From assembly GCF_009932555.1 (NCBI RefSeq), contig NZ_BLJO01000004.1:353174-417173 (forward strand): 64,000 nucleotides of DNA. The letters run 5' to 3'. A program made the translations under genes and the position numbers. The notes beneath the pieces were generated by a model, which did no database searches, was not told where the DNA came from, and saw nothing but the letters and a program-made list of their open reading frames with translations. Within the stretch, counting starts at the first letter, position 1. Every line of letters begins with the position of its first letter. This document shows, piece after piece, positions 44,748 through 49,564 of this stretch. This stretch comes from Steroidobacter agaridevorans. GTDB lineage: Bacteria > Pseudomonadota > Gammaproteobacteria > Steroidobacterales > Steroidobacteraceae.

Positions 44748-44913
44748 CAGCTCACGCCGCGATTTCGCAACGCGATTGATCAATTCAGGCGGGCGGCCGA
44801 CCTGAGGCGGCGATGCGCTACCTTTGAAATTCAGGTTGCGCATCCAGCACCGATATCCCAACATCGGATGTAACAACGATCCGGAATCGGTGCGGGACTG
44901 GCCTCCTCCAGCA

Positions 44914-47868
44914 ATGACCAAATTATGTCGCGGCCGAAATGCGGGTGTGGCGGCGGGGCTTCTGCTGGGAACGCTTTTGTTCATATTCACTCGTTCCGCG
45001 ACGGCCGAAGACGAAGCTCGCTCCCGACAATATGAGTTCGACATTCCGCGTACGTCGCGGACCCTGGCGCTGCATGAGCTGAGTCGCCAGGCGGGCGGCC
45101 TGCTGGTCGCGTACTTGAGCTCCGACGATGAGGAAGAGCAGAGTCTGGTCGGGCCGGTGAAGGGGCGGCTCACGGTCGATGAGGTCTTGCGGGTCCTGCT
45201 GCGCTCGTCGCAGCTCGGGTCGCGCTGGATCGAGGACCGCATGGTGTCGGTCGAGCCCAGGCCGCCCACCGAGGCCACGGTCGAATTGCCTTCCGAAGCC
45301 GTCGCCCGGAGCTTGTCCTATTCGAGTGGCTTCGATCTGTCGCGGTTCGAGCCCGAAGAGGTGCTGGTGCTCGGCTGGCCGATCCGGGATCTGACGCTGT
45401 CGGTAGCGCCCGCGGTCGTCATGGAAAGTGACGAACTGGAGGCCATCGGCGCGTCCACCTTGCCGGACGTGCTGCGTTATTTGTCACAAAGCGCTTACTC
45501 GCGGCCCGAAGGCTACCGCGCCAGCGGCGCCCAGTATGCGGAGATGCGTGGACTGGGTCCGGACACGGCGCTGATTCTCATCAACGGGCGGCGGGCCTTC
45601 CCCAGCGCCAACAGCCTGGCGTCCAGCGCATTCGATCTGAATTCCATCCCGGTCACCGCGGTGGAGCGCATCGAATTTCTGCTGGACTCGGCCGCGGCGG
45701 CTTATGGCAGCGATGCGATTGGCGGCGTGATCAACATCGTGTTACGTGACAAGGTCGCCCAGCCCACCGTCGAGCTGCGTTATGGCGGTACAGATGGGGG
45801 CGCAGAGCAGGAGCGGGTCACGCTCTCCGCCGGCCTGAACAAAGATCGGTTTCATGGCGCCATCGTGTTCGACTACTTCGACATCGGCGGTCTGCTTGGC
45901 GAGGAGCGGAGCCTGTGGCGCGATCAGGATTTTCGGCGCTATGGCGGGCGTGACCATCGCTCGCCAATCAGCAGCCCGGGCAATGTCAGCTCGTTGAGCG
46001 GCAACCTGCCTGGGCTGTCCGCGCCCATTGCCGCCGTCCCTCGGGTGGACAGCACGCCGGGCACGACCATCGACGATTTCGCCGCCACCGCCGGGCAGCC
46101 GAATCTGGAGAGCTTGCTGCGTTATTCCAGCATCGTTCCCGAGACAACACGCCGGACTGTGACAGCGACGGGCACGGCGCGGCTCACGGACCAGATCACC
46201 GCGACCGGCGAGTTGCTCTATGTGAATCGCGACTCTACTTATTACTATGCGCCGCCGGTGCTGGCGAGCATGCCCGTGCCGGGTCCGAGTCCGCTGAGCA
46301 CCGGCAATCCATACAATCCTTTCGGTCGCACCGTGCGGATCAATCGCTTGCTCACGGAATATCCGTCGCAAGTGCAGTCCGTCGATTCGGAGTGGCTGCG
46401 CTGGGTAGTGGGCCTGCATGGCGACTGGGATCGTTGGAGCTGGGAAGTATCGGCGCTGCGCTCGGATGAACAAGCGACTGCCACGCTCGACAACGCTCTG
46501 GATCCGTTGGCGGCGCTGCGCGCGTTGGCGAATCCCGATCCAGCGTTGGCGCTGAATCCTTTCTCTTCCGGCCCGATCGGCAGTGAGACGTTGCTGGCGA
46601 GCTTGCGTTTACCGCCGGACGTGGATGAGTTCAGTTCCGGCGGCCAGCAGTTCACGGGATTCTTGCAAGGCCCGATCTGGACTTTGCCCGGCGGTCCCGT
46701 CACTGCGGTGTTGGGCGCCGAGTGGCGCTCCGAGATGATGCGAGCTTCGAACGAAGTCGCGCGCTCGTTCGATCGCGATCGTGACATTGTCTCGGGCTTC
46801 GCCCAGCTGCGTGTTCCTTTCGTTAACGACAAGCTGCGCGCGACATTGCCCGGTCTGCGCGAGCTGATGTTCACCGCCGGCACTCGCTTGGACGATTACA
46901 GCGAGTTCGGGCACGTGCTGCGCTCACAAATGGGCTTGCTGTGGAAGCCGCATCGTGACTTGAGCGTGCGTGTGTCTGGCGGCAGCAGCTTCCGGCCACC
47001 GTCGTTGTATGAATTGTATCTGCCGCGAATCTCGGTGGTGGCGCCGGTGACAGATCCCGCGCGCCGCGAGTTGGCCGCCGTCACATTGACCATGGGGGGC
47101 AACACCGATCTCGAGCCGGTCACCGCACGATCGCTGACCGCCGGCCTGGTGTTCAGTCCAGACTCGGCGTGGAACTGGAATATTTCCGCCGACTGGTGGC
47201 GCATCGATATGAAGAACCGCGTCGTATCGCTGTCGCCGCAGGTGATGCTGGCCCACGAGGCGCTGTTCCAAGACCGCATCGTGCGCGATCAGTCCACCGA
47301 TGCGGAGCGGCCCGGCGTACTGCGGGCCATCGACGCGTCACGCATCAACATCGGCGGCGTCAAGACCGCCGGCGTGGATCTCGGCATCAAAGCAGATTTC
47401 CTGACCGAGCTCGGACGCTTCACGCCCGAGTTGCAGGCGACGTGGTTCGATCGATTCGAGTCCAGCGATGTGCCGGGCCAGGCGCCGGTCGAGCGCGTCG
47501 ATCTGGCAAGCGAGCTGGGTTCCATTCTCGACTGGCGCGCGGTCCTGTCATTGAGATGGAAGCGCGGAGCGTTCGGCGCCGCCATGTTCGCGCGATACAC
47601 CCCTTCTTATGACGATGCCATTGCCGGCGTACGCACCGGCCGAACTATCGACGCGCAGACTTTGTTCGATCTGCAGGGCTCCTTGGACTTCGGCCTGTTG
47701 TATGGCGGCGAGTCGCGACTGCATGGACTGAAGCTTTGGGCCGGGGCGGTCAACGTGTTCGATGAGCCGCCCAGCTTTGCCGATGTCGGCGACGCCAGCG
47801 GCTTCGACTCGTCGCACAGCGAGCTGAAGCAGCGCTCTTATTACATCCGTCTTGAAAAGGAATTCTAG
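44914..47868 (+). CDS. TonB-dependent receptor with N-terminal STN (secretin/TonB) domain
   Basis: The protein has about 984 residues if ATG 44914 is used; there a signal helix (VAAGLLLGTLLFIFTRSATA) begins well. An STN domain (residues about 40-95) precedes the plug (LPDVLRYLSQSAYSRPEG, RIEFLLDSAAAAYGSDAIGGVINI) and the barrel, which ends SYYIRLEKEF. STN domains usually signal to a FecR anti-sigma factor, but no FecR/FecI pair is near, so the domain may be vestigial or act in trans. The ligand is unknown. A small convergent peptide gene with a lasso-leader-like sequence lies 64 bases beyond its stop. Confidence 0.92.
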   Translation: MTKLCRGRNAGVAAGLLLGTLLFIFTRSATAEDEARSRQYEFDIPRTSRTLALHELSRQAGGLLVAYLSSDDEEEQSLVGPVKGRLTVDEVLRVLLRSSQLGSRWIEDRMVSVEPRPPTEATVELPSEAVARSLSYSSGFDLSRFEPEEVLVLGWPIRDLTLSVAPAVVMESDELEAIGASTLPDVLRYLSQSAYSRPEGYRASGAQYAEMRGLGPDTALILINGRRAFPSANSLASSAFDLNSIPVTAVERIEFLLDSAAAAYGSDAIGGVINIVLRDKVAQPTVELRYGGTDGGAEQERVTLSAGLNKDRFHGAIVFDYFDIGGLLGEERSLWRDQDFRRYGGRDHRSPISSPGNVSSLSGNLPGLSAPIAAVPRVDSTPGTTIDDFAATAGQPNLESLLRYSSIVPETTRRTVTATGTARLTDQITATGELLYVNRDSTYYYAPPVLASMPVPGPSPLSTGNPYNPFGRTVRINRLLTEYPSQVQSVDSEWLRWVVGLHGDWDRWSWEVSALRSDEQATATLDNALDPLAALRALANPDPALALNPFSSGPIGSETLLASLRLPPDVDEFSSGGQQFTGFLQGPIWTLPGGPVTAVLGAEWRSEMMRASNEVARSFDRDRDIVSGFAQLRVPFVNDKLRATLPGLRELMFTAGTRLDDYSEFGHVLRSQMGLLWKPHRDLSVRVSGGSSFRPPSLYELYLPRISVVAPVTDPARRELAAVTLTMGGNTDLEPVTARSLTAGLVFSPDSAWNWNISADWWRIDMKNRVVSLSPQVMLAHEALFQDRIVRDQSTDAERPGVLRAIDASRINIGGVKTAGVDLGIKADFLTELGRFTPELQATWFDRFESSDVPGQAPVERVDLASELGSILDWRAVLSLRWKRGAFGAAMFARYTPSYDDAIAGVRTGRTIDAQTLFDLQGSLDFGLLYGGESRLHGLKLWAGAVNVFDEPPSFADVGDASGFDSSHSELKQRSYYIRLEKEF

Positions 47869-47886
47869 GCCCATTGGCCCAGGCAT

Positions 47887-47914
47887 CCGGGTGCATTCGG
47901 CCGCATGCACCCGG
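47887..47914. terminator. Bidirectional hairpin between TonB receptor and small peptide gene
   Basis: CCGGGTGCAT and its exact complement ATGCACCCGG form a 10-bp stem with an 8-base loop, 18 bases after the receptor stop. It can fold in both directions and also sits past the 3' end of the minus-strand peptide gene. No T-run follows. Confidence 0.6.
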
Positions 47915-47932
47915 ACGATCAGGTTGCAGCCA

Positions 47933-48058
47933 TCAGCCGATATCCGGCACCAGGCCCATGCCGAAGACATTGTCGAAAAAGACCGGAATCGGCAGGAACT
48001 GCCTGGTTTCTTCGGTGGCATCGCCCAGGTCGACCAGCTCGATGGGATCCGTGTTCAT
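47933..48058 (-). CDS. 41-residue peptide with lasso-leader-like N-terminus (candidate RiPP precursor)
   Basis: The gene is too short for routine ORF calls but has an excellent ribosome-binding site, AGGAGAGGG ending 4 bases before the ATG. The N-terminal part reads IELVDLGDATEETR, closely resembling proteobacterial lasso-peptide leaders of the form DLG-A-x-x-ET-(K/R), in which the threonine is two residues before the cut. The rest begins QFLPIPVFFDN and ends GMGLVPDIG, rich in proline and aromatics. In known lasso peptides an Asp/Glu sits at core position 7 to 9; here the first acid is at 10, and no B or C maturation genes are present. The class is therefore open. It is monocistronic and convergent with a TonB receptor. 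Confidence 0.6.
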   Translation of the reverse strand: MNTDPIELVDLGDATEETRQFLPIPVFFDNVFGMGLVPDIG

Positions 48059-48367
48059 TGCCCTCTCCTAAGTTGCACGTCGAACAACACGGGATGCATT
48101 GCCCGGTGCGTTCCGGACCCTGCCATACCAAATGGGATTGGAATTAAGGGGCAGACCGAGGCGCGACCGGCCGCATTGCGATGGTCCGCGTCATCCCTGG
48201 CGTTGGTGCCGATGCGTGCCGGGCGGCTGCTTGGGTGACAGACATGGTGTTATTGGCAATCGAACGGTGTGATCTGCGTCACTGTCTGCGCCTGGGTTGC
48301 ACCGGAGGCGGAATGCGGTAAAGCCTGAAAGCGACCGTCCTGTGTCATGCCGGCCGAAGGCATGCCG
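48059..48367. other. Divergent promoter region between peptide and porin genes
   Basis: These 309 bases must hold the promoters of the minus-strand peptide gene and the plus-strand porin. A strong ribosome-binding site for the peptide is at 48063-48071. I found no clear -35/-10 pair or dyad. A 25-codon frame from 48244 has no ribosome-binding site and is not called. Confidence 0.5.
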
Positions 48368-49564
48368 ATGTATTGCCGCATGAGCTGGGCGATATCGAAA
48401 CCTCTTACTTTGATCGGTGCAGGCATCTGCGTGGCGTGCGCAGCCATGTCCGCGCAGGCGGGCGATCTCGCATCGAGCATGGCATTCGACGCGAGTTACA
48501 CCAGCGACTTCTTTTCCAACCGTCGCGGCGGGCTGGAGCGTGGCGAGCGTCATCTCGCCGATCTCACCGTTTCCGCCACGCTGGATATGGAAGAGCTGTG
48601 GAATGTCCGGGGACTGACGCTGTTTGTTTCCGGACAGAGCAATGACGGCGGCGGCTTTTCGGATCGCTTCGTCGGCGACTCGTTCGCGGTATCGAACATC
48701 GATGCTCCTACGGCGTCGCGCTTCCTCGAGGTGGGTGCGAAGTGGGGATTCGGCGAAGACGGCGAGCACGGCTTGCGCGTCGGTCTGCTCGACTTGAATG
48801 CTGAGTTCGATGTGAGCGATCCGCGCGCCTTGTACATCAATTCGGTGTTCGGCATCGGTCAGGACTTGAGCCAGACCGGCGAGAACGGTCCTTCGATCTT
48901 TCCGACCACCGCCTTGGGTGTGAGCTTGAATCTGCAAGTTGCGCCTCAGTGGCACTGGCTCAATGCTGCCTTCGACGGCGTGGCGGGCGATCCGAACCAT
49001 CCCAAATCGACGACTGTGCAACTTCATCGGCACGATGGCTTGTTGTTGATCTCGGAATTGCAGCGTCTGACCGAGGGTCGCGTGGAAAAGTTAGCCTTTG
49101 GTGTGTGGGGCTACACGCAGGCGGCCGCACATTTGACCGCGGAAGGCTCGGCCCATAACCATGGTTGGTATGTTTCGGCTGACTCGCGTCTCGGTGCGCT
49201 GGATGAAGTGCGGCCCTGGCGCACGTCGCTGCGCATCGGTCAGGCGGAGGAAGTCGTGAGCGATCACGACTGGTCCGTGATCGCCGCTTTGAACTACGAC
49301 GTGTCGCGTCCGATCGGGCGTGAGCAGAGCTTTGGTGTTGCCGCTGCCTGGATCAAAACGTCATCGGCGCTGCGTGAGAGCGCGGAAGATGTGGACGATT
49401 ATGAGACGGCAGTCGAGCTGACGTGGCGCGCGGCGGTCACCGACTGGCTGACGTTGCAGCCCGACGTTCAATACATCATCCATCCCGGATCGCAGCGTTC
49501 GCTACGCAACGCTGTGGTGGTGGGATTGCGCTTCGACATCATCGCACCGACGTTCAGTTGGTGA
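48368..49564 (+). CDS. OprB-family carbohydrate-selective porin
   Basis: The 398-residue protein (ATG 48368, with GAAGG 7 bases upstream) has a signal peptide ending AAMSAQAG and then the OprB signature: a conserved turn SGQSNDGGGFSDRFVGDSF, DPRALYINSVFGIGQDLSQTG and GPSIFPTTALGVSLN. The C-terminus ends DIIAPTFSW with the terminal aromatic. It would let sugars or related small solutes through the outer membrane. A strong hairpin follows, and tonB converges on it. Confidence 0.85.
   Translation: MYCRMSWAISKPLTLIGAGICVACAAMSAQAGDLASSMAFDASYTSDFFSNRRGGLERGERHLADLTVSATLDMEELWNVRGLTLFVSGQSNDGGGFSDRFVGDSFAVSNIDAPTASRFLEVGAKWGFGEDGEHGLRVGLLDLNAEFDVSDPRALYINSVFGIGQDLSQTGENGPSIFPTTALGVSLNLQVAPQWHWLNAAFDGVAGDPNHPKSTTVQLHRHDGLLLISELQRLTEGRVEKLAFGVWGYTQAAAHLTAEGSAHNHGWYVSADSRLGALDEVRPWRTSLRIGQAEEVVSDHDWSVIAALNYDVSRPIGREQSFGVAAAWIKTSSALRESAEDVDDYETAVELTWRAAVTDWLTLQPDVQYIIHPGSQRSLRNAVVVGLRFDIIAPTFSW

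Follow-up and report, generated by a model that had tools for sequence, protein, structure and literature searches.

The lasso peptide clusters of the astexins, benenodin-1 and sphingopyxin I combine the precursor, protease and cyclase genes (A, B and C) with a TonB receptor and sigma/anti-sigma genes, and clusters of this isopeptidase type keep A, B, C and the isopeptidase together, whereas the precursors described here are scattered (covered parts of PMC9266682). What isopeptidase-type lasso peptides do in proteobacteria has been called enigmatic, and a siderophore-like role has been proposed for them (PMC9266682, same parts). The ring acid of lasso peptides usually lies at core position 7 to 9 (PMC11006600, in the part available). 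Metanodin, from the Steroidobacterales, resembles the present peptide in coming from a related bacterial order, in its Thr at −2 and in an unusual first ring residue (Asn1 was observed, and Gln is predicted in a related cluster), but there precursor, B, C and an isopeptidase are encoded together in one cluster; its ring has nine residues, as counted here from its fragments, and no dispersed paralogues are reported in the covered parts of the paper (PMC12670498). The citrulassin deiminase is a case of a lasso pathway using an enzyme encoded elsewhere in the genome; there, in the text available, only a tailoring enzyme is distant, whereas here several precursors would rely on distantly encoded core enzymes, B and C (PMC12971885).

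We analysed a window of 64,000 nucleotides (the whole stretch of DNA under study) from the soil bacterium Steroidobacter agaridevorans, in which an earlier note, made from the sequence alone, had pointed out a small gene with a lasso-like leader. Among lanthipeptides, the prochlorosins provide a precedent in which a single RiPP enzyme acts on numerous precursors encoded at scattered sites, although we know of no dedicated receptor for each prochlorosin. The parts of the present system (a lasso-like precursor, B, C and a signalling TonB receptor) are known, but their arrangement as dispersed cassettes was not found in print: in the literature listings searched, with subscription journals thinly covered, nothing was recognised as dispersed lasso precursors paired with receptors.

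The predicted precursor gene and its locus

The genome comprises 8.0 Mb in 26 contigs, and the window peptide is encoded on contig C4. The gene is flanked by an OprB porin gene (48347-49564) on one side and, on the other, by a TonB receptor ORF convergent to it. The features of the locus were as follows:

48058..47933, minus strand: predicted precursor gene (A), 41 codons and stop (ORF; paralogues; orthologues in G011, G002 and G008)
48058..48002, minus strand: leader, codons 1-19 of the precursor gene
48001..47936, minus strand: putative core QFLPIPVFFDNVFGMGLVPDIG, part of the precursor gene
48069..48061, minus strand: ribosome-binding site AGGAGAGGG (sequence; kept with small changes in the three orthologues)
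47917..47884, minus strand: hairpin with a 13-bp stem, lying over the C scar (z-score −2.6 for an 80-nt stretch)
47906..47865 (42 nt), minus strand: scar left by the deletion of a lasso C (cyclase) gene, with the reading MRPNAPGCLGQWA followed by a stop, its first nine codons matching the C start of G002
47882..47865, minus strand: terminator-like stem followed by a T-rich tail (pattern scan only)
44824..47868, plus strand: putative cognate TonB-dependent receptor, 1014 codons, start codon uncertain (PF00593 and PF07715, plug and barrel)

The full translation of the precursor in the ORF list is MNTDPIELVDLGDATEETRQFLPIPVFFDNVFGMGLVPDIG. A chance ORF was ruled out by paralogues in the same genome and by orthologues in Peristeroidobacter agariperforans (G011, 85% peptide identity), P. 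soli (G002, 73%) and a Steroidobacter MAG (G008, 68%), and the reading frame is kept in these relatives. Two of the conditions under which the earlier note would have been refuted, a lack of homologues and a frame that is not conserved, therefore do not hold. The gene and its strong ribosome-binding site were correctly recognised in the earlier note. The terminator hairpin it named corresponds to the 13-bp stem and the terminator-like stem listed above; the pattern scan returned two terminator-like sites on both strands against 0.5 expected. For the promoter region also claimed for the gene, no sigma-70-like site was found by pattern scan in 47840-48380. The description of the gene as an orphan held locally, in that no B or C gene adjoins it, but not genome-wide, where it has four paralogues. 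These paralogues, the matched receptor group, the adjacent scar of a C gene and a conserved Asp just past the usual ring positions had all been overlooked.

A palindrome, TGTGATCTGCGTCAC, lies at 48268-48282, 65 bp before the OprB porin gene, and is presumably CRP-like. The pattern TGTGA-N6-TCAC, for which 0.39 chance matches are expected in the window, also occurs in the aligned upstream DNA of G011, G002 and G008.

Paralogues and paired receptors in one genus

Queried against its own genome, the window peptide retrieved two paralogues at E 1.4e-5 and 2.3e-4 and two further ones only at E 0.05 and 1.9. With a profile built from these five rows, all five members (on C4, C1, C19 and twice on C9) scored at least 62 bits, and the next candidate scored 12.3. 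One of the two on C9, C9a, precedes a lasso B gene by about 130 nt, a lasso C gene comes next, and this A-B-C operon was present in 5/5 genomes with a C9a-type precursor. The other four precursors, including that of the window, have no B or C gene beside them. The C9a and window leaders are identical at 11 of 14 positions when compared by eye (IELVDLGDATEETR in the window, IELLDLGDATIETK in C9a). A genome-wide search for lasso B and C genes found two B genes, on C8 and C9, and cyclases on the same two contigs. The C8 precursor has a different leader (MIKLGKVSKETK) and a normal Gly1 core, and the C8 cyclase is only 29% identical to the C lost at the window locus; the window peptide was rejected as a precursor for the C8 cluster on account of leader and cyclase. 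The C8 cluster (L010) itself resembles the known clusters named above; it carries an isopeptidase gene that passes the lasso isopeptidase model (509 bits, cut-off 400), sigma/FecR genes and a receptor of low similarity, and its precursor core begins GVKVVVASE.

Across the genus (Peristeroidobacter/Steroidobacter), 26 peptides of this family were found in 10 of 14 genomes. A family-wide scan with a 22-row profile found peptides in 10 of 217 genomes, all ten within the genus, and among 398 genomes drawn from the phylum, the window's own was the only one with the peptide family. Because all members come from one genus, they are not independent evidence. Lasso B was present in the same ten genus genomes and absent from the other four. 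Receptors scoring above 430 bits were likewise found in these ten; two of the remaining four had no match, and the best scores in the other two were 188 and 180. No B gene was found near 15 of the 26 peptides in the stretch examined (mostly 18 kb, with two on contigs shorter than 9 kb), and 13 of these 15 had neither B nor C. In the C1, C9b and C19 groups, no B or C adjoins any of the ten loci examined, and the cassettes are conserved between genomes together with their receptors. The four C9b cassettes are each separated by approximately 18 to 24 kb from the C9a operon in their genome.

Some members differ in layout. The peptide on G005 C93, which has B and C, is the one among the 26 with no receptor in the 13 kb covered. 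On G005 C43 (L133, 8802-8918), a member with Cys1 and Asp10 (CSLAGGPQIDAFYGPFHWSC) is followed by a lasso B gene that reaches the contig end. In G016, from the same family but another genus, a Gly1 precursor-like peptide (L142, 8800-8964; ...ELGEVTTETKGYLSGLAYDGGYWWWG) faces a convergent receptor gene, which comes after B and C on the opposite strand, possibly an intermediate layout.

For four of the five peptides in the window genome, the gene directly faces a convergent TonB receptor gene, and the C9a operon as a whole converges on one. The earlier note had called the window receptor STN-type; it is a convergent TonB receptor and is STN-like by profile, but the Pfam STN model was not called on it. 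The profile, built from six receptor N-termini of the window and C9a types (the window's included), matched the signalling domains of FpvA, PupB and PupA in the PDB (best E 1.3e-5). When the window receptor was searched against its own genome, with 69 places listed from 129 scored candidates, the top matches were the receptors of the four other peptides (658, 516, 445 and 438 bits), and the next score among the matches listed was 194. The genome has at least 116 receptor-barrel places (116 of 181 candidates scored, the window's own not among them). In a tree of 46 receptors, drawn with a midpoint root for display only, the 25 peptide-linked receptors clustered in a single group of 33 with support of 100/99, together with seven for which no peptide was found and one located at a contig end; outside it were seven further peptide-less relatives and six other receptors of the window genome. 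Each peptide group (window, C9a, C9b, C1 and C19) pairs with one receptor group with strong support. This suggests private peptide-receptor pairs, one matching receptor for each of the five peptides, around one shared assembly line.

Strict one-to-one pairing across the genus was rejected, as 6 of at least 32 receptors above 430 bits had no peptide found (25 had one, and one lay at a contig end); the total may be low, since scoring covered no more than 61 candidates per genome in seven of the genus genomes. In G002 (L203, L205, L207, L208 and L209) and G011 (L206), receptors of the same group had no family peptide within 900 bp downstream. These are possibly listeners without a peptide of their own, or pairs whose peptide was lost. 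Such receptor-only paralogues would also fit antibacterial lasso peptides that enter kin through the paired receptor, with the producer's own receptor serving re-uptake or clearance. The cores differ strongly between groups, in line with that role, and MccJ25 enters through a siderophore receptor (PMC11006600, in the part available). However, the labelled genes included none recognised as serving export or immunity, and the sigma and FecR genes that adjoin the receptors of C9b and of most C9a operons point to signalling. An antibacterial function is considered very improbable. No sigma or FecR genes were recognised beside the window receptor.

Loss of the cyclase gene and selection on the precursor

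In G002 and G008, the orthologous locus reads receptor, convergent lasso C, precursor and porin, with no B gene; each genome has two lasso B genes, both away from this locus. The C gene is intact in both (dN 0.20, dS 1.09; SGGLDSS motif kept) and, judged by these rates, is under purifying selection. It starts with MRPNAPGCLEEC in G002 and MRPNAPGCNERC in G008. As the first nine codons of 47906..47865 in the window match the G002 start, a C gene once stood here and was then deleted. The earlier note was right that no maturation gene adjoins the precursor. A relocated C gene was rejected: apart from the cyclases on C9 and C8, the window genome gave only weak matches (at most 32.6 bits). Within this genome, the cyclase on C9 comes closest to the C of G002, at 45% identity.

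Complete A-B-C clusters occur near the base of the receptor group in G001, G007, G009 and G013. The gene between C and the receptor scored 148 bits in G007 and 183 bits in G009 with the lasso isopeptidase model (cut-off 400), and ORFs of similar size occupy this place in G001 and G013. At the window locus only the C scar lies between precursor and receptor, with no isopeptidase gene, and in the C9 operon C abuts the receptor. The family looks like a reduction from full clusters to peptide-receptor cassettes, a direction that we infer.

The main alternative is that the window locus is a relic, formerly an A-C-receptor lasso locus; once C was lost, maturation of the precursor would have ceased, leaving it to decay, and its conservation would date from before the loss. 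The C gene is scarred in both the window and G011, where a different scar is accompanied by a second piece of C. The receptor of G011 (L049, 7286-8815) is reduced to the C-terminal 509 codons, lacking its N-terminal half; the precursor there is still intact. Between the window and G011, the precursor genes differ at 13 positions (3, 2 and 8 by codon position), with 6 amino-acid changes against a mean of 8.8 in neutral simulation (P = 0.07; dN 0.078, dS 0.242), and the upstream DNA is nearly as conserved as the gene (86% over 285 aligned bases with 65 gap columns, vs. 89%), so constraint between these two alone would not contradict decay. The other five orthologue pairs, which are not independent, showed fewer amino-acid changes than the simulation (P 0.001 to 0.036). 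In group C1, the G000-G011 pair showed no constraint by dN/dS (dN 0.20, dS 0.20). Against decay, the receptor ORF of the window has its full length; the frame, ribosome-binding site and core of the precursor persist both there and in G011; and the C1, C9b and C19 groups are conserved with their receptors despite having no adjoining enzymes. Overall, we regard a relic as unlikely, though it carries more weight than any other alternative.

Ring position, candidate enzymes and a reading in trans

All 26 members carry [EV]T[KR] ahead of residue 1, which in the window peptide is ETR before Gln1. With the conserved Thr numbered −2, the core begins at Gln; if cleavage occurs one residue later, Thr is at −3. 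In the first numbering, residue 1 is Gln in 21 members, Glu in three, and Cys and Gly in one each. Among the first 12 residues, the last Asp stands at position 10 in 20 of the 26, at 9 in five and at 8 in one. Four members (three C19 and the C9b of G010) also have an acid at position 7, which could be used for the ring in place of the later Asp. In the clusters near the base (G001, G007, G009 and G013), Asp is at 8 or 9, giving the usual sizes. The ring acid of the window peptide would be Asp10 with Gln as residue 1, or Asp9 if the core starts after Gln; the earlier statement that no acid falls at core position 7 to 9 is right in the first case. The cassette family therefore has either a 10-residue ring, or a B enzyme that cuts one residue later and a ring of nine. 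Gln1 is favoured, because with the later cut the Pro at residue 2 in three members would bear the ring amine. No report of a 10-residue lasso ring was found in the literature searched, and a 2026 review contained neither "10-membered" nor "ten-membered". Among the C9b peptides (L009, 8679-8822, and its orthologues in G011, G002 and G010), Asp is at 9 or 10, and CC follows the ring in three of the four.

With Gln as residue 1, the window peptide has the penultimate leader Thr of lasso precursors and lacks an acid at core 7 to 9; B and C are not in the same cluster. As acid position and local enzymes both departed from the usual lasso pattern, we did not file the gene as a lasso precursor; it is nevertheless predicted to work like one. 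An alternative is that the peptide never forms a lasso and serves as a linear or differently modified ligand, or as a decoy for the leader-binding domain of B. The Gln1 and the Asp at 10 rather than 7-9 would suit this, and the peptide passed no curated precursor model of NCBIfam or Pfam; its leader resembles the benenodin and subterisin models, with scores below the cut-offs (lasso_benenodin 17.7 bits, cut-off 33; Pfam Subterisin 19.2, cut-off 27), and it reached 15.2 bits with lasso_albusnod (cut-off 30). Yet C9a has the same Gln1...Asp10 spacing and sits in its A-B-C operon in every genome that has it, and two relatives keep a constrained C beside the window-type precursor. In lasso peptides of the Steroidobacterales, moreover, Asn1 is proven and Gln1 predicted (PMC12670498, in the parts covered), and a pure leader decoy would need no conserved core. 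A non-lasso product therefore appears still less probable than a relic.

The C9 B protein passes the lasso_biosyn_B2 model (58.8 bits, cut-off 33). An AlphaFold model was built from an 18-row alignment (pLDDT 85, pTM 0.84), and the best PDB match of its N-terminus was TbiB1 with bound leader (probability 1.00, TM 0.63 over the target, E 0.016); no PDB match in this fold search reached E 0.001. By sequence, the N-terminus best matched TfuB1 (E 0.014), and the NCBIfam PqqD-type model gave 21.5 bits, below its cut-off of 70. Going by the modelled fold, C9 B probably carries a leader-binding RRE. The C9 C protein matched PF00733 (71.1 bits, cut-off 21) and fell below the cut-offs of the NCBIfam lasso cyclase models; the SGGLDSS motif was present in all five C proteins aligned.

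Five paralogues with one in an A-B-C operon, a C gene without B in relatives, and the scar together make it most likely that the window peptide depends on the C9 B and C in trans. We accordingly favour, at a probability of about 0.55, that the window gene encodes the precursor (A) of a lasso-like peptide, matured in trans, and forms with its receptor a cassette that no longer has processing genes of its own. Of the three options raised in the earlier note (a new precursor class, an in-trans substrate or a leader-like small protein), the in-trans substrate is the best supported, by the A-B-C paralogue in the same genome and by C without B in two relatives. For maturation and receptor binding, we infer the following course. 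The C9 B protease and C9 cyclase would act in trans on the window peptide, with B cleaving after Arg19 and C linking the Gln1 amine to Asp10, or Phe1 to Asp9 if cleavage occurs one residue later. The product would exit the cell and be bound by its own TonB receptor, which would then import it and/or signal inward through the STN-like domain. The family would then consist of private peptide-receptor pairs served by one common maturation machine. A fuller version, which we offer as tentative, is that the five cassettes on this machine encode private lasso ligands, mostly with a 10-residue Gln1-Asp10 ring, and their own signalling receptors, and that they spread by copying precursor and receptor while dropping B and then C.

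Genome mining that takes clustered B and C genes as its starting point would overlook precursors of this kind. If the Gln1...Asp10 spacing makes a ring, the known ring sizes would be widened, and supply in trans would show from natural cases how tolerant B and C are of different substrates. Enzyme-less peptide-receptor cassettes also make the receptor-ligand idea directly testable, with five pairs in one cell.
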